A DNA stretch of 64,000 nucleotides from a virus: positions 1-64,000 of IMG/VR virus record IMGVR_UViG_3300024319_000003, one strand, 5' to 3'. The translations under genes were made by a program, and so were the position numbers. The notes under the pieces were generated by a model that worked only from the letters and a program-made list of their open reading frames with translations, ran no database searches and had not been told where the DNA came from. Positions 2,438 through 35,781 of this stretch are shown in pieces. Position 1 is the stretch's first letter. Each line of letters starts with the position of its first letter.

Positions 2438-2851
2438 ATGAGTACATTAGAATTATTAAACAACAACCCTTTTGACATACTTGTCAGAAATTTTTTACAA
2501 TCCCAAGGGCATTTCCGCCCAATTGATCAATCAAAAGTCCCACATCCTGTTGATATCTTCGAAACACCTATCGGTATTGGTATAGATATTGCTTGTACAG
2601 GAATCGATAAAGAGGATATTGATGTTCAAATACAAGGAAACATTCTTAGAGTAATATACGATAAACCAAAATCAGAGCTTGATAGTAAGTTTTACCATAG
2701 AGGTATAGCTAAACGAGCTTTTAATTTAGGTTGGAAGATCGATAGTAAGTTCCAATTAAGTAAAGCTGATGCTTCATTTGAAAACGGACTACTTCGAATC
2801 AGTATACCTTTTAGCAAAGGTTCAGAGTTAAAGACTTTGAAAATTAAATAG
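2438..2851 (+). CDS. hsp20: Small heat shock protein, Hsp20/alpha-crystallin family
   Basis: 137 residues, a usual length for Hsp20. An alpha-crystallin domain fills roughly residues 38-130: an opening strand PVDIFETP, the region CTGIDKEDIDVQIQGN, then YHRGIAKRAF and the closing ASFENGLLRISIP, which matches the family pattern A-x-x-x-N-G-V-L. ATP-independent holdase that keeps unfolding proteins soluble. Sits directly before groES/groEL, so it forms a chaperone block with them; T4-like cyanophages also carry an hsp20 (family knowledge). A TATTTATA motif lies about 80 bp upstream of the start. Confidence 0.9.
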   Translation: MSTLELLNNNPFDILVRNFLQSQGHFRPIDQSKVPHPVDIFETPIGIGIDIACTGIDKEDIDVQIQGNILRVIYDKPKSELDSKFYHRGIAKRAFNLGWKIDSKFQLSKADASFENGLLRISIPFSKGSELKTLKIK

Positions 2852-2870
2852 GTTTTTTTTCGCTCTCAAG

Positions 2871-2901
2871 TTTGATCCCTCATTTATTTTTCTTATATTA
2901 A
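2871..2901 (+). promoter_or_regulatory. Promoter of the groES-groEL operon
   Basis: TTTG at 2871 and TATATTA at 2894, a 19-base gap, followed by the groES start at 2928. This is the Bacteroidota primary-sigma layout (TTTG, then TAnnTTTG) and a one-base-shorter version of the promoter repeated through this window. Confidence 0.6.
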
Positions 2902-2927
2902 TATAAACAATAAAAAATAAGTTATAC

Positions 2928-3236
2928 ATGGCAAAAGAATTAATACCCTTCAATGATAGAGTTATTATAAAACCTATAGAAGAAGATGAACAAATGTACG
3001 GTAATATAGTTGTACCTGATATGGGTAAGAACAAACCGGAAATGGGAGAAGTAATCTCAGTAGGACCAGGTCGTCAATCTGAATTTGGTCAGTTTATTAG
3101 AGTAAATGCAAAAGTAGGAGATACTGTACTTATTCCAAAAATTGGATCTTTAAGAGTAGATTTTGATGGAGAGGAATACTTCATAACACCAGACAAAGAA
3201 ATTTTAGCAATAATTAAAGAATCAAACAATGAGTAA
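2928..3236 (+). CDS. groES: Co-chaperonin GroES (10 kDa lid)
   Basis: 102 residues against about 97 in bacteria. It opens with the family pattern LIPFNDRVIIKPIE and continues with a mobile-loop region (roughly residues 18-33, containing NIVVPD, matching the I-V-L hydrophobic triplet), then GEVISVGPG and a C-terminal DGEEYFITPDKEILAII. Forms the heptameric lid of GroEL. Its stop overlaps the groEL start by 8 bp, so the pair is translationally coupled. T4 gp31 is a functional analogue, but this protein looks like a standard GroES. Confidence 0.95.
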   Translation: MAKELIPFNDRVIIKPIEEDEQMYGNIVVPDMGKNKPEMGEVISVGPGRQSEFGQFIRVNAKVGDTVLIPKIGSLRVDFDGEEYFITPDKEILAIIKESNNE

Positions 3237-4866
3237 AAAAGTTATATTTTCAGACGAAGCAAGAGGGAAGCTAGCAAAAGGAGTAGATAAATTAGCAAAT
3301 GCTGTAACAGCTACATTAGGACCTTCCGGAAGAAACGTTATTATAGAACAAGATATGGGGAATCCTATATCAACTAAAGACGGAGTAACAGTAGCTAAGT
3401 CAATCGAACTATCAAATAAGGTGCAAAATTTAGGAGCACAAATTGTTAAACAAGCTTCTATTAAGACAGCAGAGCAAGCAGGAGACGGAACAACTACATC
3501 TACACTTCTCGCACAATCTATGCTTTCAGAAGGTATAGACAAACTTAAGAAAGGTCAAAACGCAGTAGACATAAAAAGAGGTATTGATGAAGCAACAAAA
3601 GAAGTTGTACAATATCTAAAAGAGTATTCAAAAGACATAACGGATGAAGAACAGCTAAAGCAAGTAGCTACTATCTCAGCTAACAATGACACCGAAATAG
3701 GTGAGTTAATTTCCACTGCCATGGACAAAGTTGGCCGTGATGGGGTAGTAACAATCGAAGAGTCGCGAACAGGAGAAACATATTTAGAAACTGTTGAAGG
3801 TATTCAATTCAGCAGAGGTTACAAGTCTCCTTACTTCGTCACAGATAATAGCTCAATGCAAGCTGTTCTTCAAGATCCGTTTATACTTCTTACAGATAAG
3901 AAGATTAATAACATAAAAGAACTTCTTCCTATCTTAGAAGCATGTTCATCTCAAAATAAACAGCTGTTAATTATAGCAGATGAAATAGGAGGAGAGGCAC
4001 TTTCTACCTTAGTAGTAAATAAGATGAGAGGTATCTTAGGAGTTGTAGCAGTTCAAGCACCTGATTTTGGAGACAGAAGAAAAGCAATATTAGAAGATAT
4101 TGCAATACTAACTGGAGGAACAGTAGTATCTCATGAAAAAGGAATGAAACTTGATAAGTTTAATACTGACTGGTTAGGGAAAGCTAACAAGGTAACAGTT
4201 AGTAAAGATACTACAACAATTATCGATGCACAAGGAGAAGAAGCTGCAATAACTGATAGAGTAGAGGATATTAAGAGTTTAATTGATAATAGTAATTCTA
4301 ATTTTGAAATTGAAACTTTACAAGAGAGGTTAGCTAAGTTTATCGGCGGTGTATCTATTGTACACGTTGGTGGATTGACAGAAATAGAAATGAAAGAGAA
4401 GAAAGATAGAGTAGATGATGCACTCCACGCTACTAAAGCAGCCTTGGAAGAAGGAATTCTACCAGGTGGAGGTATCGCTCTCTTGAACTCTGCTATGATG
4501 CTTGCTGACCAAATTGGCGCCCAACCAGAAGAGTATCATCTAGGTTACGAAATTGTAATCTCAGCAATCGAAAGACCTTTCTATAAAATACTATTAAATG
4601 CAGGATATACAGACAGCGATATAGGAGGTATAGAAGAACATATTAAAGAAGGAGGAGATGCCTGGTCAGGGTATAATCCTAGAGAAGAACAGTATGTAAA
4701 TATGTTTGCTTCCGGTATTATTGATCCAACTAAAGTTACTAGGTTAGCATTAGAAAATGCAGCATCAGTTGCAGGAACGATGTTAATAACTGAAGCAGTG
4801 ATTAGTAATAAAAAGGATAAAAAACAAGACCCAGCACAGGGTATTGATCCATCAATGATGATGTAA
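3229..4866 (+). CDS. groEL: Chaperonin GroEL (60 kDa)
   Basis: 545 residues, full length. ATPase signatures are intact: GDGTTT at residues 85-90, ISANND in the equatorial/intermediate region, and RVDDALHATKAALEEG followed by PGGG near residues 390-412. Expected to form the 14-mer folding chamber with the GroES encoded just upstream. The C-terminus is DPSMMM instead of the usual GGM-rich tail. A complete phage GroES-GroEL pair is uncommon; T4 itself makes only the lid and borrows host GroEL. No truncation or frameshift is seen. Confidence 0.97.
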   Translation: MSKKVIFSDEARGKLAKGVDKLANAVTATLGPSGRNVIIEQDMGNPISTKDGVTVAKSIELSNKVQNLGAQIVKQASIKTAEQAGDGTTTSTLLAQSMLSEGIDKLKKGQNAVDIKRGIDEATKEVVQYLKEYSKDITDEEQLKQVATISANNDTEIGELISTAMDKVGRDGVVTIEESRTGETYLETVEGIQFSRGYKSPYFVTDNSSMQAVLQDPFILLTDKKINNIKELLPILEACSSQNKQLLIIADEIGGEALSTLVVNKMRGILGVVAVQAPDFGDRRKAILEDIAILTGGTVVSHEKGMKLDKFNTDWLGKANKVTVSKDTTTIIDAQGEEAAITDRVEDIKSLIDNSNSNFEIETLQERLAKFIGGVSIVHVGGLTEIEMKEKKDRVDDALHATKAALEEGILPGGGIALLNSAMMLADQIGAQPEEYHLGYEIVISAIERPFYKILLNAGYTDSDIGGIEEHIKEGGDAWSGYNPREEQYVNMFASGIIDPTKVTRLALENAASVAGTMLITEAVISNKKDKKQDPAQGIDPSMMM

Positions 4867-7892: not shown

Positions 7893-7917
7893 CTTAAAAC
7901 TAGTATAACTTCTAGAG

Positions 7918-7939
7918 GAGGGCATTAGCCCTCTTTTTT
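7918..7939 (+). terminator. Rho-independent-type terminator
   Basis: Six-base stem GAGGGC (7918-7923), loop ATTA, GCCCTC (7928-7933), then six T. Isolates the holin-like gene from the exported-protein island. Confidence 0.85.
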
Positions 7940-7955
7940 GTGAACAATTATTTAT

Positions 7956-9026
7956 ATGAAGAAACTAACCTTTATATTAATACTACTCAGTAGTATAGTA
8001 AAAGCACAATCACCACTATGTCCTTCATCTGCACAAGCTTTTGGGTATGAACGTTTAAATTCGATAAATATAAATGGACAAAATTACATTGTAAATACAG
8101 GTTGGACTGGACCAGGATATATAGACCATACAAATACCTTAGTTCCTACAATAAATGCCGGAGATGTAATTACTCTTAATTTTCAAGCTCAAACCCGAGG
8201 TAATTACCGACAGTACTTTAAATTATGGATTGATTATAATGGAAATGGAAATTTAAACGATTCAGGAGAACTAGTTCACTCTAGTAATAGTACGTGGAAT
8301 GGAACTAGAAATTTCAATAAAACATTTACCGTTCCGCAAACAGTTTTCAATGGAGAAGTTTATATGAGGTTTATGATGGTATATTCTTCTTCTCCCAACT
8401 TATGTGGTAATTACTCATATGGAAATACAGTTGACTTCAAAACTACAATTACAGGAGCTGTTGATCCAATAAATCATAGTGGGTACGTTTACGGCGCTGA
8501 AGAAGAACCTTTAGAAGGAATCACAGTTCAACTTAAAACACAAAACAAAAATCAGGTTGGATTTAGTTACAATCTACACTCAGAAGCTGTAACAGATACA
8601 AATGGAGCTTATAGTTTTTCAACTAATTTAAATTATGATGATTACGATTACACTATAGATGTAGTGCCTCCTACATTATCAATTCCAACTCTAAATGATA
8701 TCAGTTACTTTACTAGTAAATTAATTAGTGGGGTTTATAATTCCAAAGATTATTGGAGAATGGATGTTAATAATGACGGGAAATTTAGTGTTGCAGATTT
8801 ATATTCTATGTTAGCTTACATGAATGGTATATTTACTCAGTATAGTAGTACTACACCTTCTACAAAAGTATTTCATTATCAACAAACTCCTTACTTTTGG
8901 GACCCTTTAGATACTGATACTGATGATAAATCTGAAAATTTTGGATATGGAAGTTATAGTTTATTTGATAGAAGTAATGGAGACTCTACTATATTCTATT
9001 TAATAAGAACCGGACACAGGAATTAG
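7956..9026 (+). CDS. Exported GEVED-domain protein with dockerin-like C-terminal part
   Basis: 356 residues. Signal peptide 1-18 (ends VKAQ). Residues about 25-167 form a GEVED-type beta domain with the hallmark WIDYNGNGNLNDSGE (91-105). Residues about 175-237 look like a carboxypeptidase-regulatory/SpaA-like fold (VTDTNGAYSF). Residues about 244-290 resemble the dockerin-like module of Bacteroidota surface proteins, with one canonical calcium loop DVNNDGKFSVAD (D270 to D281). Such modules are typical of T9SS-secreted host proteins and surprising in a phage. No T9SS tail is seen on this protein. Starts the exported island. Confidence 0.65.
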   Translation: MKKLTFILILLSSIVKAQSPLCPSSAQAFGYERLNSININGQNYIVNTGWTGPGYIDHTNTLVPTINAGDVITLNFQAQTRGNYRQYFKLWIDYNGNGNLNDSGELVHSSNSTWNGTRNFNKTFTVPQTVFNGEVYMRFMMVYSSSPNLCGNYSYGNTVDFKTTITGAVDPINHSGYVYGAEEEPLEGITVQLKTQNKNQVGFSYNLHSEAVTDTNGAYSFSTNLNYDDYDYTIDVVPPTLSIPTLNDISYFTSKLISGVYNSKDYWRMDVNNDGKFSVADLYSMLAYMNGIFTQYSSTTPSTKVFHYQQTPYFWDPLDTDTDDKSENFGYGSYSLFDRSNGDSTIFYLIRTGHRN

Positions 9027-9064
9027 TTATATTTATAATAAATTAATGTTAAAATAAAATTACA

Positions 9065-10153
9065 ATGAAAAAAACAATTACCCTCATAACCGCATTACTA
9101 ATCACAGTATTTACATATGGACAAACTACATCACCCGATGCAACTAAGCCGTATATAATTCTTGATTCTACTTATAATTTAGAGTCGGTTAATTCCTCAA
9201 ATAATACTATAGTTGATATTTACTACGATAACACATCAGGTAACACAGTAAAAGGTATTCAATTCTCTTTCAGTTACGATAAAGATGTTTTTGACACACC
9301 AACTGTAACTTACAACAACACTTCAGGACCTGTAGGGTATATGTCTACAGATGTGGATGCAACAAACGGTATTGTAAAAGTCGTATGGGCCTATGATGGT
9401 GCTACTACTACCTTTGACCTTATTGCTGGTAATATGTTTGATGTTGAATTACCATTTAAATCTAGTTATACTAATGGTACAGTTGATGGGATTGACTTCA
9501 CAAACAATTTAACTGCTTATTATGCACAAACTGATGGTACAGATGCTATTCTAGGCACATCAGATAACGGTGGTAACTTTATAGAACCAGCATTTGATTA
9601 TGTAGCAACTATTTTAAATAATGCAACAAACCCAGCAGAATTAATTCCTGTAATTTTACAGAAATCAGCAGATGGTAGTACTTGGGTAGATGTAGCTACA
9701 GATACAACAGAAGCCGATGGAACAGCAACATTCTCAGAGAATATAGATCAAGATTACTGGCAAGTTAGATTAAAAATTGCAAGTGGTTTAGATGCAAGTA
9801 CAGCATTATCAGCAGCAGATGCAAATATGATTGCTCAAATAGCAGCAGGAGTACAAACAACATCAGGTATACAGTACTATACCGGTAATACAAACCAAGC
9901 AAATGGTATTACGGTATCAGATTCTTATCTGTTATTTGCTAGATTAGCTCAAGGTTTAAGTGCTTATACAAATAACCCAGATGTACTATTCTTTACTGAA
10001 GCTCAATACAACACTATTGATGCTGCTACCTCAGATCAATCTGGGACAATCTCAGGACAAGAAGAATTCTTATCACCACAGATAAATGGAACTACAGCAG
10101 GTAATTTCTACTTACTAGTATTAGGTGATGCAAATGGTACAGGATTAAATTAA
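9065..10153 (+). CDS. Exported cohesin-like protein with dockerin-like tail
   Basis: 362 residues, signal peptide 1-20 (ends TYGQ). Residues about 30-170 read like a cohesin: KGIQFSFSYDKDVFD, then GIVKVVWAYDG and MFDVELPFKS. Residues about 180-240 are a small beta domain (LQKSADGSTWVDVA). Residues about 250-315 contain two helix-like repeats (LSAADANMIAQIAAG and ITVSDSYLLFARLAQG) like the two halves of a dockerin, but the calcium loops are weak. Only 3 bp before the next cohesin gene. The assignment is by pattern and needs a profile search. Confidence 0.55.
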   Translation: MKKTITLITALLITVFTYGQTTSPDATKPYIILDSTYNLESVNSSNNTIVDIYYDNTSGNTVKGIQFSFSYDKDVFDTPTVTYNNTSGPVGYMSTDVDATNGIVKVVWAYDGATTTFDLIAGNMFDVELPFKSSYTNGTVDGIDFTNNLTAYYAQTDGTDAILGTSDNGGNFIEPAFDYVATILNNATNPAELIPVILQKSADGSTWVDVATDTTEADGTATFSENIDQDYWQVRLKIASGLDASTALSAADANMIAQIAAGVQTTSGIQYYTGNTNQANGITVSDSYLLFARLAQGLSAYTNNPDVLFFTEAQYNTIDAATSDQSGTISGQEEFLSPQINGTTAGNFYLLVLGDANGTGLN

Positions 10154-10156
10154 TAA

Positions 10157-10894
10157 ATGAAATCGTTATTAATATTTTTACTAACACTATCAACAGTAGC
10201 TCACTCTCAGGTCAAATTTAACGTACCTGAGATTGAGGTACCTGTTAGTACTTATATTAATTTACCGGTTGTAATCGAAACTAATAGCAACGATGTAGGT
10301 AGTTTAGAATTTGCACTAAATTATGACCCCACATACTTAGCCTTTGAAGATATATCGGTAACAGCTAAAGCTCAACAATGGTTAACCTACACTATGGACT
10401 GGCAAGGTGAAACAGTTAGATGGGGAGGATATGATGCTTCATTTGGTACTTATACAATAAACTCACCCACAGAACTATTCACAGTTAGGTTTAAAGTAAT
10501 TGATCAATCATGGGTAGAGATACCTATTACCATTGGAAGAAAAACCGCAGGAACTGAGTTAGGTTGGGATATAGAGGTTATAAGTACAGATGGGTATGTA
10601 AATAAAAGATCAATGCCCTTTGAAGTACCACCTATAGACGGCATATACGGAATAGCATACCCAGTACCTACTACCGGGCGTATAACACTAGAGTTAACAG
10701 TACCCGAAAATGGAGAATATAAGGTTATAGTATCTGATTTTTTAGGTAAAAAACACGGTGTGTATAGTAAGAAGTTTTTCTCGGGGTATGTTTCTTTTAG
10801 AGTAGATGTTAGGGACCTTGCTACTGGTATCTATTTATTACAAGTAACTAACGGTAGGTTTGTTAAGACATTTAAAATTATTAAAAATGGGTAA
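10157..10894 (+). CDS. Exported cohesin-domain protein with T9SS C-terminal sorting domain
   Basis: 245 residues. Signal peptide 1-18 (ends AHSQ). Cohesin domain about 19-150: PVVIETNSNDVGSLEFALNY, then DPTYLAFED, VRWGGYDAS and LFTVRFKVID. C-terminal about 80 residues match a type A T9SS sorting domain: YPVPTTGRITLEL, YKVIVSDFLGKK, GIYLLQVTNG and a final FKIIKNG. In Bacteroidota this tail directs a protein through the outer membrane to the cell surface. The phage would therefore use the host's secretion machine. Overlaps the next start by 8 bp. Confidence 0.7.
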   Translation: MKSLLIFLLTLSTVAHSQVKFNVPEIEVPVSTYINLPVVIETNSNDVGSLEFALNYDPTYLAFEDISVTAKAQQWLTYTMDWQGETVRWGGYDASFGTYTINSPTELFTVRFKVIDQSWVEIPITIGRKTAGTELGWDIEVISTDGYVNKRSMPFEVPPIDGIYGIAYPVPTTGRITLELTVPENGEYKVIVSDFLGKKHGVYSKKFFSGYVSFRVDVRDLATGIYLLQVTNGRFVKTFKIIKNG

Positions 10895-11144
10895 AAAGAA
10901 AACATTTTTTTCGGAAATTAAAAACCAAATAGTAACAGGAATTGGATTAGTAATAACAGCAGGATTTGGATTATTAATAGCTAATATGCAATCTATATTT
11001 GAACCTAAAGAAGAAGTTCAACAACCACCAATGATAGAACAAACAATTAGCATTCCAGAAGGAGTTAAAGATACTTTAGTAATAACTAAGACTATAAAAG
11101 TACAACCAGTCAAGACTAAGAAAGAAGAAGAAATATCATGGTAA
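10887..11144 (+). CDS. Small single-pass membrane protein
   Basis: 85 residues counted from the ATG at 10887, which overlaps the preceding stop; the longer frame from 10860 is less likely. Basic N-terminus (MGKKKTFFSEIKNQ), one helix at about residues 15-36, then a proline/glutamate-rich tail ending KTKKEEEISW. No family recognised. Lies between the cohesin/T9SS gene and the CsgG-like gene. Confidence 0.55.
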   Translation: MGKKKTFFSEIKNQIVTGIGLVITAGFGLLIANMQSIFEPKEEVQQPPMIEQTISIPEGVKDTLVITKTIKVQPVKTKKEEEISW

Positions 11145-11845
11145 GAATATTTTTAATTATATCGATGTTACTAAGTTTTACTGCTAATGCTCAATTAGGT
11201 AAAACGGAGACAGAAAACTATAAGGGTAAATTTGAACAAGATGCAGATATAGATGAAGTATCTGATTATATGTTAGATTATCAATTACCAATTCAAGTAC
11301 TGAACATTGGCTTTACACCAGAACTGTATGAATTTTATCCTGAATTAAGAGAGAATAGAGTGGGATTGGGTGTGAGTAATATTACTCTATCTTATCTAGA
11401 ATGGACTGACAGGTTTATATTTACAGAAGATAAAGAAGATATTAAACAAAGAATGGTAAAACAACATAAAGCTTCAGCTAAAGGTATATCTTCAAATGAG
11501 ATTAAAGTTGTCGGTAATGTAATATTAGCAGAATACTTTACCTATGTTGAGATTTATGACTACTCAGTATCTGAAGAAGAAGAAATAACTAAAGACGGTA
11601 TAAAGATTGTTCTAAAAACTATTATCGGTATGCAAGTGAGATTTGTAAATGCCGAGACTGGTTCCATACTAACAGGTTCCGGAAGTGGAGAAGCAGTTAC
11701 AATAAAAAGATCTAATTTATTAGAAGGTTTGGATGAAGTTAAGTTCAATAAATCTACAATTGGAATAGCAACCAAAAAAGCTCTTGAATCAGCTTCAGCA
11801 AGGATCGTGAAAAAAATGATTAAGCGTGGCATCTTTAAAGAATAA
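11138..11845 (+). CDS. CsgG-like outer-membrane export protein
   Basis: 235 residues; signal peptide 1-19 (ends ANAQ). The body resembles the CsgG/HfaB family, which builds the outer-membrane pore for curli subunits: YLEWTDRFIFTE, then VGNVILAEYFTYVEIYDY, then MQVRFVNAETGSILTGSGSG and STIGIATKKALESASARI. E. coli CsgG is a lipoprotein; here the signal peptide has no lipobox Cys. Overlaps both neighbours (7 and 20 bp), so it belongs to one operon with two predicted beta-barrels. Family call is moderately sure; pore function is inference. Confidence 0.6.
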   Translation: MVRIFLIISMLLSFTANAQLGKTETENYKGKFEQDADIDEVSDYMLDYQLPIQVLNIGFTPELYEFYPELRENRVGLGVSNITLSYLEWTDRFIFTEDKEDIKQRMVKQHKASAKGISSNEIKVVGNVILAEYFTYVEIYDYSVSEEEEITKDGIKIVLKTIIGMQVRFVNAETGSILTGSGSGEAVTIKRSNLLEGLDEVKFNKSTIGIATKKALESASARIVKKMIKRGIFKE

Positions 11846-13184
11846 AATAATACTATTACTATTGAACGTTATACCTATGTTTGGTTTCTCTCAAACATGG
11901 AACTATACGTTTACCGATCCCTGTACCCTTAATCAACAAACAGTAACAAACACTATAGGTCAATCCATTGCTTTAAATTACTTTGGGAATGTACAGAGCT
12001 TTACAGAAAGTGATTTTACTAATGGTGTATTTGATAACTGGATTAATTCTGTAACTCAAATTAATTCATCATCACCATGTGAAAGCATTACACAGGTAAT
12101 AGTTAACAATGCAAATAGTACGGTTGTAGCGACTACATTAACTGTTGTGACTAATATAATGTCCGTAATGGGAGGCAATATGTTACCACCAGCAGAAAGT
12201 ATTAACAACTCATCTAATGGAAATGATTCTGATGAAGAAGCAGATGAGAAAAACACTAAAACAAATGGAAGCAATACAGATAAAAAAGGAAGCACAAACA
12301 TTACTCAAACAGATAAAGGCAATCAAGAAGCCAAAGGAAATCAATCCTCTACTAAACCAAGCGGAGGATCTAATTCAAATACAACTGGAGGGTCTAGCAA
12401 TACAGATAAATCAGCTAAAACAGGAGAACAAAAGACTGAATCGCCTGTAGAAGATAACGAAGGGGCATCAACACAAGCTGTAGCTAACTCCTTAGCTAAT
12501 GCTATAGATGGAGGAGATAACGAACAATCAAATGAATCAGGAAAAAACTCAGGTAGCTTAATAGCTTCAGGAGATATAGTCGTAATATCTAATCAAGATA
12601 ATTCAAATGGAGAGCAATTTAGATTTGTTGGAAGTATTACACATTCCAACACAGATAATAGTAGAATAAAAGGAGCATTATTTACATATACATCAGTTAC
12701 CAATGATGCTAGTATAACCTTATATAAATCGTGGATAAATCCAAAAAAGACTTTTAACTTAGTATTAGCTAACACAACACTAACTAATTTTAAAACAGAC
12801 GTAACCAACACTACAACAGCATTAGAATCTTTCCGATTCGGTAAGCAAAAGAAGTATACAGGTATGGCTGGAATAAACTACACTTACGGTAAGCTCGGTG
12901 AAAGAAGTCTACAGAACTTATCATCAGTTGCTGGAGTACATAGAAACTTTAAGGTTAGTCCCAGAATATCAACAAGTTTTCTTATGCTAGGAGTGTACTC
13001 ACCTTTTACTCAATATTATGAAGGTAAATGGTTTAATGCAGGATTATTAGTTGTACCTTTTAGTTCATGGGATATTAAAATAACAAAAACATTTAAGTAC
13101 AATATAAGCTTTACCGGAGTATGGCAGACATCTGGCAGTGCTTTAAACTATCAAATATTAACAGGAGGAAAAATAAACTTTTAA
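11826..13184 (+). CDS. Predicted outer-membrane protein with low-complexity linker
   Basis: 452 residues. Signal peptide to about residue 22 (ends GFSQ). A Cys-containing N-terminal domain (about 23-110) is followed by an Asn/Ser/Gly/Thr/Lys-rich linker (about 120-245) and a beta-strand-rich C-terminal part (about 250-452). That part has alternating strands and ends in Phe (GGKINF), as expected for an outer-membrane barrel. Its start lies 20 bp inside the CsgG-like gene. Not recognised beyond this; it could be a partner or substrate of the CsgG-like protein. Confidence 0.55.
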   Translation: MASLKNKIILLLLNVIPMFGFSQTWNYTFTDPCTLNQQTVTNTIGQSIALNYFGNVQSFTESDFTNGVFDNWINSVTQINSSSPCESITQVIVNNANSTVVATTLTVVTNIMSVMGGNMLPPAESINNSSNGNDSDEEADEKNTKTNGSNTDKKGSTNITQTDKGNQEAKGNQSSTKPSGGSNSNTTGGSSNTDKSAKTGEQKTESPVEDNEGASTQAVANSLANAIDGGDNEQSNESGKNSGSLIASGDIVVISNQDNSNGEQFRFVGSITHSNTDNSRIKGALFTYTSVTNDASITLYKSWINPKKTFNLVLANTTLTNFKTDVTNTTTALESFRFGKQKKYTGMAGINYTYGKLGERSLQNLSSVAGVHRNFKVSPRISTSFLMLGVYSPFTQYYEGKWFNAGLLVVPFSSWDIKITKTFKYNISFTGVWQTSGSALNYQILTGGKINF

Positions 13185-13187
13185 ACT

Positions 13188-13625
13188 ATGAAACATTTAA
13201 CATTATTACTATTACTTTTACCTACACTACTATTTTCACAAAATTGCTACGAAGTAGGTAGAGTTGTATCAAGAGTAGAAACAGAAGATATAAGTCAAAA
13301 GAGAATTATATTCGGTATAAAGCAGATGGCAGAAGAAATACTATCAGAAAAGTACGACTTATGTCTTAACGGTACCCCTATCTTTATAGAGATTACATCA
13401 ATCAAAGCTCCATCTACAGGGTTTAAGATAGGACCATGGGAAAGAAAGAAGAAAGTAACTCAGGTAAAATTAGTTATTATAATAAGAGGAGAAGTAATAG
13501 AAGGAATCGGAATAGCAAAATCAACTGTTCAAGCAACATTCTTAGATTTAAATAATGAAAATCTTCCTTTTAGTAAAACTGTATTTGCTTCAGCAGTAAA
13601 AAAAGCATTGGAAGATACTTTATAA
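13188..13625 (+). CDS. Exported protein distantly like the CsgG C-terminal region
   Basis: 145 residues, signal peptide 1-17 (ends LFSQ), then NCYEVGRVVSRVE. The C-terminal half (VKLVIIIRGEVIEGIGIAK...FSKTVFASAVKKALEDTL) echoes the ending of the CsgG-like protein two genes upstream (SGSGEA...FNKSTIGIATKKALESA). It may be a shortened relative; this is a weak similarity. No membrane helix after the signal. Three bp after the previous stop. Confidence 0.45.
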   Translation: MKHLTLLLLLLPTLLFSQNCYEVGRVVSRVETEDISQKRIIFGIKQMAEEILSEKYDLCLNGTPIFIEITSIKAPSTGFKIGPWERKKKVTQVKLVIIIRGEVIEGIGIAKSTVQATFLDLNNENLPFSKTVFASAVKKALEDTL

Positions 13626-13653
13626 CTATTTATAATAAATTAAAACTAAAGAG

Positions 13654-14859
13654 ATGAAAAAATTATTAGTATTATTTACAGTATTACTTTCAACACAAGT
13701 ATGGGCACAGGAAGAAAAGCCGGGCTTCTTTAAATCTATATATACAGATTTCTTAAAATACGGTACAGTATACGGAGCAGGAGATATATCCAATTCTGTT
13801 GAAGCAGAAGAACAAACATATTTCCTTAGAACTAATCCTGATGGAAGTTTATATTCTATACCGGATGTAGTTAACAATACAGAAGTATTTCCTTTTGATT
13901 ATAGATATGGATTCGGAATAAGAAAATTAGCTAGATTTGATTACGAAAGAAAACCTAAGAACTTTTATGATGGTACTGAAGAGCAGTTAGTATTTTCAGC
14001 ACCAACATCAGCTGTACAGGGACTCGAATATTTATTTCATTTTGAGAAAGAAAGATGGAGAGGGCAGGATTTCACTAATTATAATTTCTTTTTAAAACAC
14101 ACTGGAAAGTACCATATACTAAAAGTACAATCTAGATCAGTAGAGAAAATTAACTTAAAATTTAACTCAGCTGAACTTAGAGCTAGATTACCAATAGGTA
14201 AGAAGTTTTCTATATCAGCAGGTGCTATAGCTAGAGGACATGAAAGAGCATATGGATATAATCCAATAGAGATTTGGTTAAATGAAACAGATGCAGATGG
14301 CAATCCAGTTAATCAATGGTATCAATTAGGATATGAAAATGGATACCAAGATGTTTTTTACACTCAAACAAGCACTGACCCAACCACAGGTGAAGAAATA
14401 ACTACACAGGATTGGTATTGGATAGATGAAGAAGGAACACAAGTCGCATCATCAGACTTAGACTTCAGAGAAAGAATAATGCCATCACTTATGAATGAAT
14501 TTAATGGATTAGCTTGGGATGAATTAGATTCATGGGTAGAAGTAGCACCTATAGTAGGATTAGATTTCTACCACTACAAAAGAGATTTTTGGTTCCATGG
14601 ATATGCTAACTACATTCTACCTTACCATAGATACATAAAAGGTGATGAAGAAGCATCGTACTTAAATAGAAACAATTGGGGTAAAGGTGGATTGAGACAA
14701 GATGCAGAATTAGAGCAATGGTCTGATTATTCATTTGGAGCATCATTAGGTACTAAAATAGGGAAGAACTTAGGTATATTTATACAAGGTGAATATTCTA
14801 AAATGTGGGACAGTAAATTATATCAAACAACATTTGGTTTAAATTACTCTTTTAAATAA
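13654..14859 (+). CDS. Predicted outer-membrane beta-barrel protein
   Basis: 401 residues, signal peptide 1-18 (ends VWAQ). Many aromatic, alternating strands and a final strand LYQTTFGLNYSFK typical of outer-membrane barrels (aromatic then a charged residue at the end). Parts are rich in Asp/Glu/Trp. TATTTATA at 13627 lies 27 bp before the ATG. Possible receptor-like, channel or exclusion role; none can be shown. Follows the CsgG-like genes in the same direction. Confidence 0.55.
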   Translation: MKKLLVLFTVLLSTQVWAQEEKPGFFKSIYTDFLKYGTVYGAGDISNSVEAEEQTYFLRTNPDGSLYSIPDVVNNTEVFPFDYRYGFGIRKLARFDYERKPKNFYDGTEEQLVFSAPTSAVQGLEYLFHFEKERWRGQDFTNYNFFLKHTGKYHILKVQSRSVEKINLKFNSAELRARLPIGKKFSISAGAIARGHERAYGYNPIEIWLNETDADGNPVNQWYQLGYENGYQDVFYTQTSTDPTTGEEITTQDWYWIDEEGTQVASSDLDFRERIMPSLMNEFNGLAWDELDSWVEVAPIVGLDFYHYKRDFWFHGYANYILPYHRYIKGDEEASYLNRNNWGKGGLRQDAELEQWSDYSFGASLGTKIGKNLGIFIQGEYSKMWDSKLYQTTFGLNYSFK

Positions 14860-14865
14860 TATAAA

Positions 14866-15150
14866 ATGGCAAAACAAATAGGAGAGGAAACTAAAATTAC
14901 TTTAGACCTCAAAACAATAGGTATAGTTTTATTCGGTCTTGCAACTGTTATCGGAATGTGGTTTTCACTTCAAGCAGATATAGAAGAAGCAAAAGAACTT
15001 CCGGAACCTGAAATTCAAAGGATAGAGTTTCAAATGAAAGATGAAGCAATTAGAGATGCTATCATTAATACTCAGGATGATGTAGAAGAAATTAAGAATC
15101 AGCTTAATAAGATTGATGAGAGACTCTTTGATTTACAAAAAAGAAACTAA
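14866..15150 (+). CDS. Membrane-anchored coiled-coil protein (94 aa)
   Basis: One transmembrane helix (about residues 18-37, IGIVLFGLATVIGMWFS) followed by a long coiled coil to the C-terminus (EIKNQLNKIDERLFDLQK). Topology resembles a spanin inner-membrane subunit but no partner frame is nested in it. Follows the barrel gene by 6 bp. Confidence 0.55.
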   Translation: MAKQIGEETKITLDLKTIGIVLFGLATVIGMWFSLQADIEEAKELPEPEIQRIEFQMKDEAIRDAIINTQDDVEEIKNQLNKIDERLFDLQKRN

Positions 15151-15151
15151 T

Positions 15152-15553
15152 ATGAAAAAGTTTATAGTTATAGCACTGGTGCTTATTACAAGCTCAATTT
15201 ACGGTCAACAGATTTTAACTGATGATAATTTTGAACAAGCTGTAGAAGGTAGATCGGCTTTTCAAGATGATAACATTTCGATAGTCGTCGTAGAATTTTG
15301 GGCATCCTTTAATGATGACAATTCTTTTGAACATTGGGATAAAATAGAAGGAGTTAAATACTATAGATGCGATATCGCTAAAGCACCAAAAGCTAAAAAG
15401 AAACATAAAGTCAGAACAATCCCACACATCATAATATTTAAAGACGGTTTTGACGAAATACATTTTAAAGCAGGTTTAGATTTCACAATCTCACAATCAC
15501 TAGAAGATATACAAAAAGAGATTGATGAATTGAAAAAGGAAAGTAAATTTTAG
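15152..15553 (+). CDS. Exported thioredoxin-fold protein lacking the CxxC
   Basis: 133 residues from the ATG at 15152. Signal peptide about 1-18 (ends IYGQ). The strand VVVEFWASF is the thioredoxin FWAxW strand, but the CGPC site is replaced by NDDN (residues 54-57). The cis-Pro region is kept (VRTIPHIIIFKDG), and the C-terminal helix is present. Probably redox-inactive and perhaps a binding or assembly factor in the periplasm. A longer frame from 15113 overlaps the preceding gene and would hide the signal peptide, so it was not chosen. Confidence 0.65.
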   Translation: MKKFIVIALVLITSSIYGQQILTDDNFEQAVEGRSAFQDDNISIVVVEFWASFNDDNSFEHWDKIEGVKYYRCDIAKAPKAKKKHKVRTIPHIIIFKDGFDEIHFKAGLDFTISQSLEDIQKEIDELKKESKF

Positions 15554-15578
15554 ATACTACTATAAAAGTAATAGAACT

Positions 15579-15659
15579 ATGACATACGGTATAAATTTAG
15601 AGAGTGAAGAGCTTATAGAAGAGTTTATCATTCTACATCAAGAAAGCGATAATATTTAA
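15579..15659 (+). CDS. Possible micro-protein (26 aa)
   Basis: MTYGINLESEELIEEF..., acidic. Fits neatly between two genes, ending 6 bp before the next ATG. No family; weak support. Confidence 0.3.
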   Translation: MTYGINLESEELIEEFIILHQESDNI

Positions 15660-15665
15660 AATAAT

Positions 15666-15902
15666 ATGGCAAACGCAGTAGCTTGTATGATTGCAATAAA
15701 TGATGTTAAATCCTCAGTTCAAGGAAATGATCCTAGAACCTGGATGAAAGCATGCGCAATAGAAACTTTATTGAAAGGTAAAAGCGGTAAGCATTTCAAA
15801 AATTGCTTAATAGGTAAAATAGAATCAACTAAAGAACACATTGAAGACCCAGCAGGGTATGCTGAGGAACTATATAATGAAATTAAAAATAAATGCAGAT
15901 AA
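15666..15902 (+). CDS. Hypothetical protein (78 aa)
   Basis: Soluble, four Cys (C7, C31, C47, C77), the sequence reads MANAVACMIAINDVK... with a helical C-terminus. Overlaps the start of the YkuD-like gene by 10 bp, which suggests a joint role or joint translation. Family not recognised. Confidence 0.55.
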   Translation: MANAVACMIAINDVKSSVQGNDPRTWMKACAIETLLKGKSGKHFKNCLIGKIESTKEHIEDPAGYAEELYNEIKNKCR

Positions 15903-16513
15903 ATATGAACTGTTACACGAGAGAAGAAATAGAAGAGACGATGAAGAGTAAAGGTTACAAGTACTTTACTGGAGGAGATTATGACGTAAATATAATAGGA
16001 GTAAGAAACTCTAACACTAATAACGAAGTTACAAATAAATTTGACGACTGTATAACACTATCTTATAAAGATAATGGAGAGTGGAAATTTAAATGTTATA
16101 AAAGCACAACAGACCCAGGTTCACATTGGGAAAGGAATTTATTAAATAAAGACGGAGTAGCAATACTAAAACCAGGTCAATATAGAGGTTCTCATAAAAT
16201 AGGATTACACCAAGGTAAATACGAAGCACTAAGACAGAAGTCACCTGTAAAAGTCTACAGAGATAATAATAAAGACGGTAAATACGATATGATTGAAGAG
16301 AATGTACATGAAGGTATATTTGGAATCAATATTCATAAAGCTGGAAAGTTTGTGAATGGTTCAACTCAGATTGATAAATGGTCAGCAGGTTGTCAAGTAT
16401 TTTCTAAAGAATCTGATTTTAATGAATTTATGGCAATTATGCATAAAGCATCAGATAAGTACGGTAACTCTTTTTCCTACACTCTTTTAGAAAGTAAAGA
16501 TATAGTTGCTTAA
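15893..16513 (+). CDS. YkuD-like peptidoglycan enzyme, probable lysis protein
   Basis: 206 residues. The C-terminal part carries GINIH (H148) and WSAGCQVF (C167), matching the H...S-x-G-C signature of the YkuD/L,D-transpeptidase fold with Ser164 and Cys167 in the expected order. Upstream lies the region PVKVYRDNNKDGKYD. Similar proteins occur widely in Bacteroidota phages, often unannotated or called endolysins. No signal peptide. Directly followed by an overlapping spanin-like pair, which supports a role in host lysis. Whether it cuts or cross-links peptidoglycan cannot be read from sequence. Confidence 0.6.
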   Translation: MQINMNCYTREEIEETMKSKGYKYFTGGDYDVNIIGVRNSNTNNEVTNKFDDCITLSYKDNGEWKFKCYKSTTDPGSHWERNLLNKDGVAILKPGQYRGSHKIGLHQGKYEALRQKSPVKVYRDNNKDGKYDMIEENVHEGIFGINIHKAGKFVNGSTQIDKWSAGCQVFSKESDFNEFMAIMHKASDKYGNSFSYTLLESKDIVA

Positions 16514-16536
16514 TTGAATTATTATTCTTATATTAA
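16504..16536 (+). promoter_or_regulatory. Promoter abutting the spanin-like pair
   Basis: AGTTG (16504-16508) inside the last codons of the YkuD-like gene, 20 bases, then TATATTA (16529-16535). ATG at 16540, so a leaderless transcript is likely. Confidence 0.6.
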
Positions 16537-16539
16537 AGT

Positions 16540-16911
16540 ATGGGCACACAACAAAGCTATACAAGCAGGTATTTATTATGCGCAATCTTAGGAGGATTTG
16601 TAGCATATATGATATGGAATAATCCTTCAATTGATGTAGATATAAAAGCTTACCAAACTCAAATAAATATTTTACAGAGTAGAATAGATTCAATACAAAC
16701 TAAAAATAGCTATCTACAAGTAGAAGCAGATTCGTTAAATACTGAGTTGGATAAGTTTAGCAATAAAATAAACTTATTAAATACAAAGATATATGTTATT
16801 AAAAAAGAAACTGAACAGAAGCTTAACGCTATTGATACTTTTGGTGGCTCTCAGCTTCAAGAGTTTTTCTCAAAACGTTACCAAAGACAGTACAAAGATA
16901 GTATTAAGTAA
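16540..16911 (+). CDS. Spanin-like inner-membrane subunit (Rz-like)
   Basis: 123 residues: one N-terminal transmembrane helix (about 11-26, LLCAILGGFVAYMIW) and a long periplasmic coiled coil (about 35-100). This is the usual i-spanin layout. The next gene starts 119 bp inside it in another frame, as in Rz/Rz1 pairs. Together they would link inner and outer membranes and fuse them at the end of lysis. Assignment is by architecture only. Confidence 0.6.
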   Translation: MGTQQSYTSRYLLCAILGGFVAYMIWNNPSIDVDIKAYQTQINILQSRIDSIQTKNSYLQVEADSLNTELDKFSNKINLLNTKIYVIKKETEQKLNAIDTFGGSQLQEFFSKRYQRQYKDSIK

Positions 16912-17224
16912 ACCAGTAGCAAAGTTAGTAGTAAAGGATCTTGTATCTTTTGATCAAATCACCCTACAACTTAGTACCACTAATAAACTACTTAAGGAGA
17001 CTAATTTAAAACTAAACACGCAATCTATTTTAGTTACTAATCTAGAAAGTCAAGTAAGTAACTACGATAACATATTTACTGAACTTAACACTAAATACAG
17101 TGTGCAACAACGTCTATCTGAGGATTTAGAAAGGTCACTTAAGCGACAAAAAGCGATGACTACTATTTATAAAATAGGAACAACAGTTGGAGCAGTTGCA
17201 ACGTTACTACTACTTGTTAAGTAA
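16793..17224 (+). CDS. Spanin-like partner, nested start
   Basis: 143 residues. N-terminal signal peptide (about 1-27, ends KSFSQ) without a lipobox Cys, then a coiled coil (about 50-120) and a C-terminal hydrophobic helix (IGTTVGAVATLLLLVK). Starts inside the previous gene in the +1 frame. Classical Rz1 is a lipoprotein, so this one is atypical; it could be anchored by its C-terminal helix instead. Confidence 0.5.
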   Translation: MLLKKKLNRSLTLLILLVALSFKSFSQNVTKDSTKIVLSKPVAKLVVKDLVSFDQITLQLSTTNKLLKETNLKLNTQSILVTNLESQVSNYDNIFTELNTKYSVQQRLSEDLERSLKRQKAMTTIYKIGTTVGAVATLLLLVK

Positions 17225-35508: not shown

Positions 35509-35582
35509 GGATCAGTAGCTCAGCTGGATAGAGCATCGCCCTTCTAAGGCGACGGTCGTAGGTTCGAATCCTACCTGGTTCA
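35509..35582 (+). tRNA. tRNA-Arg (anticodon TCT)
   Basis: 74-base cloverleaf: acceptor GGATCAG pairs with CTGGTTC (two G-T pairs), D-loop AGCTCAGCTGGATAGAGC, anticodon loop CTTCTAA, T-arm GGTTCGAATCC. Discriminator A, CCA not encoded. Reads AGA codons, frequent in this AT-rich genome. Confidence 0.95.
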
Positions 35583-35588
35583 CAATGT

Positions 35589-35688
35589 AGGGGAGAAAAA
35601 CGTAAAATCCTAAAGTGTAATCGACGGATTGCACGAAGCTTTAGGTTGGGACTCTGAGTGTGAAAGCCGGCTAAAGAGTGAAGCCCCT
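35589..35688 (+). ncRNA. Structured RNA between two tRNAs, unknown class
   Basis: No frame. Outer stem AGGGG (35589-35593) with CCCCT (35684-35688). Inside, a long hairpin: CCTAAAG (35609-35615) with CTTTAGG (35639-35645), continued by TGTAATC (35616-35622) with GATTGCA (35627-35633), loop GACG, and a 5-base CGAAG bulge. A third stem ACTCT (35651-35655) pairs with AGAGT (35675-35679) and encloses the palindrome AGCCGGCT. This makes a three-way junction. T4 also encodes small stable RNAs of unknown role (C and D) in its tRNA cluster. Confidence 0.6.
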
Positions 35689-35698
35689 CAAATATTTT

Positions 35699-35772
35699 GG
35701 ACTTTTAGCTCAGTTGGTTAGAGCACCGCACTCATAATGCGTAGGTCGATGGTTCGAGTCCATCAAGGTCCA
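35699..35772 (+). tRNA. tRNA-Met or tRNA-Ile2 (anticodon CAT)
   Basis: 74-base cloverleaf: acceptor GGACTTT with AAGGTCC, anticodon loop CTCATAA, T-arm GGTTCGAGTCC. A paired first position (G-C) argues against initiator tRNA. Could be elongator Met, or Ile if C34 is lysidinylated. Confidence 0.95.
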
Positions 35773-35781
35773 CCGGGAAAA

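Follow-up and report, generated by a model that had tools for sequence, protein, structure and literature searches.

Related systems and the locus

Among the described systems, the cellulosome scaffolds of Clostridium and Acetivibrio share with the viral genes considered here cohesin folds, a dockerin-like EF-hand tail and the layout of an anchoring scaffold with a functional unit that would be docked on it. In X-dockerin dyads an X module lies ahead of the dockerin, and the extra beta-module found before the dockerin-like tail of the phage proteins resembles it. Unlike a cellulosome, the present set is phage-encoded and without enzymes, its cargo is a lectin-type head, its tail has a single calcium loop and stays below the Pfam cut-off, and its anchor belongs to the type IX secretion system (T9SS) and not to the S-layer or sortase kind. 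No dockerin-bearing polysaccharide-degrading enzyme was found: in the whole record the core occurs only on the two proteins called A and B below, neither of which matches an enzyme family.

CsgG-CsgF clusters are known from pelagimyophages, for which "sibling capture" was suggested, and from the methylophage Melnitz, in which no clumping was seen and a pore for lysis timing was proposed (PMC7029224, PMC9004378). These "curli" clusters are similar to the present locus in being a block of an aquatic phage in which a CsgG relative, here a putative one, adjoins small proteins; however, the protein concerned here (E) resembles CsgG only distantly, neither CsgF nor CsgE is recognised in the block, and the block has lectin-type heads and a T9SS anchor, with Flavobacterium as the one known host. 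T9SS type A surface proteins of Bacteroidota combine a Sec signal with a C-terminal sorting domain, as does protein C of the locus; unlike them, C is phage-encoded, and the sorting domain is found on a single protein of the set. The same block is present as gp013-gp019 in Flavobacterium phage immuto (NC_055915), cultured on Flavobacterium sp. LMO8, where its annotations are just "lectin C-type domain", "cohesin domain" and hypothetical proteins. Immuto differs from the DNA studied here by a C-type lectin head in place of GEVED and by a B protein that is 55% identical. The open-access literature yielded no report of a cohesin-dockerin scaffold in phages, and within that literature the statement of the preliminary description that none had been reported is upheld. 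The phages form a family infecting water-living Bacteroidota, whose conserved block appears to provide the infected cell surface with an anchor, cohesin/dockerin-like connectors and an interchangeable sugar-binding tip.

The gene block and its export signals

The window is the stretch of 64,000 bases analysed here, that is, bases 1-64000 of a 167,696-base (167.7-kb) IMG/VR virus record. Three ORFs in succession are named A (7956-9026), B (9065-10153) and C (10157-10894), and D-G are the downstream genes of the block. Their features are as follows (profile A10 is described with the tails below).

7956-9026, plus strand: A, exported head protein of 356 aa, with signal peptide, GEVED head, prealbumin-like module, dockerin-like core and C-terminal extension
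8214-8441, plus strand: GEVED domain, the variable head, A residues 87-162 (Pfam PF20009, 52.7 bits, cut-off 24.4)
8478-8657, plus strand: prealbumin/SdrD_B-like module, A residues 175-234 (sub-threshold Pfam matches in many members; AF2 pLDDT about 82-96)
8667-8846, plus strand: dockerin-like core of A (profile A10, 81.4 bits, A itself being in the profile)
8763-8798, plus strand: EF-hand loop D270-D281 of A (D270, N272 and D281 invariant across the 44-row A alignment)
9065-10153, plus strand: B, exported putative adaptor of 362 aa, with cohesin, prealbumin-like and dockerin-like modules
9212-9547, plus strand: cohesin domain of B (PF00963, 15.7 bits, E 0.0015, below the cut-off in the genome search; relatives above; fold match)
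9800-9967, plus strand: dockerin-like core of B (profile A10, 37 bits; calcium loop degenerate here)
10157-10894, plus strand: C, exported putative anchor of 245 aa, with cohesin and T9SS tail
10211-10513, plus strand: cohesin domain of C (PF00963, 34.9-35.9 bits, cut-off 24.1)
10658-10879, plus strand: T9SS C-terminal sorting domain of C (PF18962, 36.0-37.9 bits, cut-off 27)
10887-11144, plus strand: D, conserved protein of about 85 aa with an N-terminal hydrophobic segment, present in the window's own clade
11138-11845, plus strand: E, putative CsgG-like exported protein (lipobox in some relatives)
11826-13184, plus strand: F, exported protein with low-complexity middle, conserved in the block (predicted outer-membrane nature)
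13188-13625, plus strand: G, small exported protein of no known family, conserved in the block

A, B and C each begin with a signal peptide of the Sec type, in its Bacteroidota form with Gln at +1, and the three adjacent exported proteins of the preliminary description are confirmed; E and G have signal peptides too. A crude scan found signal peptides in 8 of the 74 plus-strand ORFs of the window, and since every one of them falls within 7956-17221, A-B-C is part of an island of exported proteins. The set is also beyond chance, because the gene block is kept across the recovered relatives. The initial interpretation as a whole is supported in part: it was right about the modules, the phage encoding and the export signals, and had overlooked the CsgG-like and further exported genes of the block.

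Immediately 5' of A, an inverted repeat (GAGGGC-ATTA-GCCCTC) followed by a T run was seen by eye at 7915-7940 and is absent from the scan listing; it is likely a terminator, and the A-B-C block would then start a new transcript. The same island encodes an exported thioredoxin-like protein (15113-15553; Pfam Thioredoxin 26.0 bits, cut-off 23.5), which may aid the disulphides of A, F and G. After G there is a 401-aa exported protein (13654-14859), possibly an outer-membrane protein, confined to a few closer relatives of the window (e.g. L021 and L023).

Regarding the downstream genes, 3 of 23 E members match Pfam CsgG (relative L066 at 21.2 bits, cut-off 20.8) and the lipobox pattern occurs in 26 of 60 unique E proteins, and these two features hint that E could be a distant CsgG relative; the E profile did not pick out E. 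coli CsgG beyond the level of shuffled sequences. F and G did not match E. coli CsgF and CsgE, and their assignment as such was dropped. PDB profile searches with E, F and G returned nothing convincing, and no curlin family (CsgA/CsgB) was present among the Pfam matches of the ten proteins scanned.

Cohesins and the sorting domain

Searched by itself, B of the window gives no convincing Pfam match, and the N-terminal domains of 8 of 10 B homologs match Cohesin PF00963, one of them (L030 B, 25.7 bits) above the curated cut-off. By family, then, the N-terminus of B is assigned as a cohesin. B and C were modelled together with AF2 from an alignment of 65 related sequences, the two TAA codons in between being read as Gly as a purely computational linker; the model has a mean pLDDT of 86 and a pTM of 0.72, and a Foldseek search against the PDB placed mostly cohesins at the top, including an Acetivibrio type II cohesin dyad over 546 columns. 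Both proteins therefore look like true cohesin folds, and the cohesins first proposed for them are borne out, by Pfam for C and by homologs and fold match for B. The preliminary description had called for a comparison of all three proteins with cohesin and dockerin folds, and the outcome is divided: the B+C model matches cohesins, whereas the top 50 Foldseek matches of the A model hold no dockerin and consist of sandwiches of the Ig/pilin type along with further folds that are unrelated. In the A model, the pLDDT drops below 50 over residues 300-333.

The sorting tail of C, which also matches TIGR04183 above its cut-off (5e-11), is the sole T9SS tail found in the 167.7-kb record. Among the relatives, T9SS tail matches occur in 33 of 35 fused BC ORFs (see below) compared to none of 71 unfused B and one of 84 A-like ORFs. 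The T9SS tail originally reported for C thus stands, with C as its only bearer in the set, and C alone combines, at the sequence level, the signal peptide and sorting domain of a T9SS type A substrate. Since the tail is restricted to C (or fused BC), A and B must reach the surface otherwise.

The dockerin-like tail of A and B

The C-termini of A and B are homologous. A proteins of the relatives match B by blastp at E about 1e-6 to 1e-11, and an HMM of the B tail matches A tails with E down to 6e-24, the window's own A at just 8e-4. Profile A10, made from A cores and fused-B cores with no unfused B, matches B of the window at 37 bits (E 5.4e-10). The core has the layout of helix, short helix and helix seen in dockerins, at residues 246-258, 265-269 and 279-289 of A and at 250-261, 269-273 and 284-296 of B (AF2). 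Dockerin_1 is the family most often matched by the cores (12 of 27, best E 2.6e-4, matches partial), and several of 15 weak PDB profile matches of the cores are dockerins. For A of the window, the match to Dockerin type I (PF00404) is below the cut-off (E about 0.02, 15.3 bits against 22.9), as are those to EF-hand and to prealbumin-type families.

The calcium loop divides the proteins. Every A protein surveyed (55 of 55) has the EF-hand pattern D-x-N-...-[STN]-x-x-D. The first of the two EF-hand-like repeats is degenerate throughout, the second is canonical in A and in fused B, and both are degenerate in unfused B; accordingly, 36 of 36 fused ORFs and 0 of 71 unfused ones have a canonical B calcium loop, the acidic ligands being lost where B and C are separate proteins. 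On these sequence features the core can well be called "dockerin-like", and it is not a "dockerin" strictly understood, with two calcium sites. The dockerin tails claimed at the outset therefore hold as dockerin-like cores on both A and B, but the calcium loop of B is degenerate in the window.

The exchangeable head of A

In relatives, the GEVED head is swapped for Lectin_C, PA14 or LamG on a homologous tail. Among 44 A proteins, the heads recognised are Lectin_C in 15, GEVED in 13, PA14 in four and LamG in one, the rest being without an assigned family. Variation is strong even between close relatives: L051 and L102 are 95% identical in the B cohesin and 98% in E, but 29% in the A head and 29% in the A tail. 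A behaves as a cassette that is exchanged while the base stays constant, as one would expect if it were a tip that binds ligands. A diversity-generating retroelement was rejected as the driver of the lectin heads, given that no reverse transcriptase (RVT_1) match was found in 9 records. Two further arrangements were seen in relatives. L066 (5642-7915) has two A genes in tandem, with differing N-terminal parts, adjoining a single B and a single C, and in L030 (2365-4032) a LamG domain is seemingly inserted within the C-type lectin head of an A protein.

Conservation, fusion and distribution

Relatives of B were found in at least 149 viral contigs. A scan of 84,980 species genomes for B, based on two peptide patterns, matched two short MAG contigs and nothing more, a strong but not absolute sign that points to a near-restriction of B to phages. 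The two contigs (L115 and L116) are binned under "bacterium" and Sphingomonadaceae, L116 also has E and F, and they are probably phage contigs mis-binned with MAGs; a bacterial origin of B was rejected on this basis. A plasmid search for B gave no match. The proposal that the set is phage-encoded is supported by these figures (149 viral contigs versus two contigs in species genomes). B is also present in four cultured phage records, all of them immuto isolates from the host Flavobacterium sp. LMO8.

The gene order A-B-C-E-F-G is found in 44 loci and BC-E-F-A-G in 30, some loci overlapping on one contig. In this second lineage (23 non-redundant proteins), B and C form a single polypeptide of ~630 aa that ends in the T9SS tail. 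Nothing argues more strongly for B and C acting as a unit than this naturally occurring fusion. The 167.7-kb record contains two cohesins (in B and C), two dockerin-like cores (in A and B) and the single T9SS tail of C. Eight relatives are alike: the T9SS tail occurs once per record and the dockerin-like core twice, or three times if A is duplicated, and the cohesins, of which one or two were detected, are confined to B/C. In these nine records, cohesins, dockerin-like cores and T9SS tail form a closed set.

Proposed assembly and alternative explanations

The modules, the export signals, the conservation, the B-C fusion, the head swapping and the near-restriction to phages are established computationally. 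Building on them, we infer docking pairs, a surface location, a route for A and B and a function. During infection, the host would be made to export a three-part surface assembly encoded by the phage. C would pass the outer membrane via the type IX secretion system of the host, with the sorting tail as its anchor, and B would join C as a cohesin-bearing base, as it does in one polypeptide in the related lineage. A would be the interchangeable, probably glycan-binding head, whose conserved dockerin-like tail could sit on the cohesin of either B or C. A and B, which have no T9SS tail, might be carried out and retained by docking to C, or might pass through E, the CsgG-like protein, together with F and G. 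Once displayed, the heads would bind surface glycans, most likely those of neighbouring cells of the same host, and so keep new hosts near the burst; alternatively, they would bind glycans of the infected cell itself and cover its receptors. The purpose is thus probably the capture of neighbouring cells or the masking of surface receptors. In the chain first proposed, with A docked on B and B on C, the weakest step is B on C, since the calcium loop of B is degenerate exactly where B and C are separate, which makes docking doubtful in the unfused lineage; a calcium-dockerin contact between B and C would predict the opposite pattern. As a whole, a T9SS-anchored phage lectin display on the infected cell, with swappable heads serving neighbour capture or glycan occlusion, is the most likely of the readings, and its chances we consider evenly balanced. 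Its most specific form, a phage-specific multi-protein display machine that commandeers the T9SS of aquatic Bacteroidota, is held together as a cohesin-dockerin scaffold and captures new hosts with exchangeable lectin tips, which would make the infected cell sticky in a way set by the phage, is put forward only tentatively.

The same display could instead serve superinfection exclusion, the heads binding the cell's own capsule or LPS and blocking competing phages or the rebinding of progeny. This possible though rather doubtful purpose agrees with head swaps among near-identical phages, which look like the tracking of strain-specific host glycans, and with exported products that have a single T9SS anchor, and for another surface-layer protein encoded by a phage a protective role against superinfection has been proposed (PMC9004378); an extended multi-part scaffold, however, exceeds the needs of a masking protein. 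Docking itself is at issue if the cohesin- and dockerin-like modules are mere spacer folds and A, B and C are secreted independently. Other surface proteins contain cohesin-like folds as modules that do not pair, the loop of unfused B is degenerate and the core of A lies under the Pfam dockerin cut-off, all of which such spacers would explain. Nevertheless, the B-C fusion, the conserved block, the closed module count, the invariant calcium residues of A and the tail common to A and B point to joint assembly, and make independent secretion an unlikely explanation.

Two further readings place the function elsewhere than in display. E, F and G could act on the outer membrane for timed release, with A-B-C as accessory proteins. 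An endolysin-like gene lies nearby (at 15893), and the CsgG of phage Melnitz was proposed as a pinholin- or secretin-like pore (PMC9004378). It is not evident, though, what a pore would need swappable lectin-type heads and a T9SS anchor for, and with F and G lacking a CsgF or CsgE match a lysis module is quite improbable. Virions commonly bear Ig-like and lectin folds, which would suit A, B and C as virion components such as head fibres; yet A, B, C, E and G have signal peptides, C ends in a T9SS tail, and the block genes of immuto adjoin replication and nucleotide genes. A virion role is therefore very improbable and, because of the Sec and T9SS signals, was rejected as the main reading.

If the surface display is correct, a phage would remodel the outer surface of its host before lysis by a self-assembling lectin scaffold, for which no earlier description was found. 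The "sibling capture" idea from pelagiphages with CsgG would also gain a concrete and testable form, cohesin-dockerin assembly would be known from viruses as well, and type IX secretion would be shown to serve phages. As cultured phages (immuto, on Flavobacterium sp. LMO8) have the whole block, direct experiment is possible.

Other genes of the window

Small heat-shock-like, GroES-like and GroEL-like proteins, recognised by reading the sequence, are encoded together at 2438-4866. Additionally, two phage tRNA genes, Arg(tct) and Met(cat), are located at 35509-35774.
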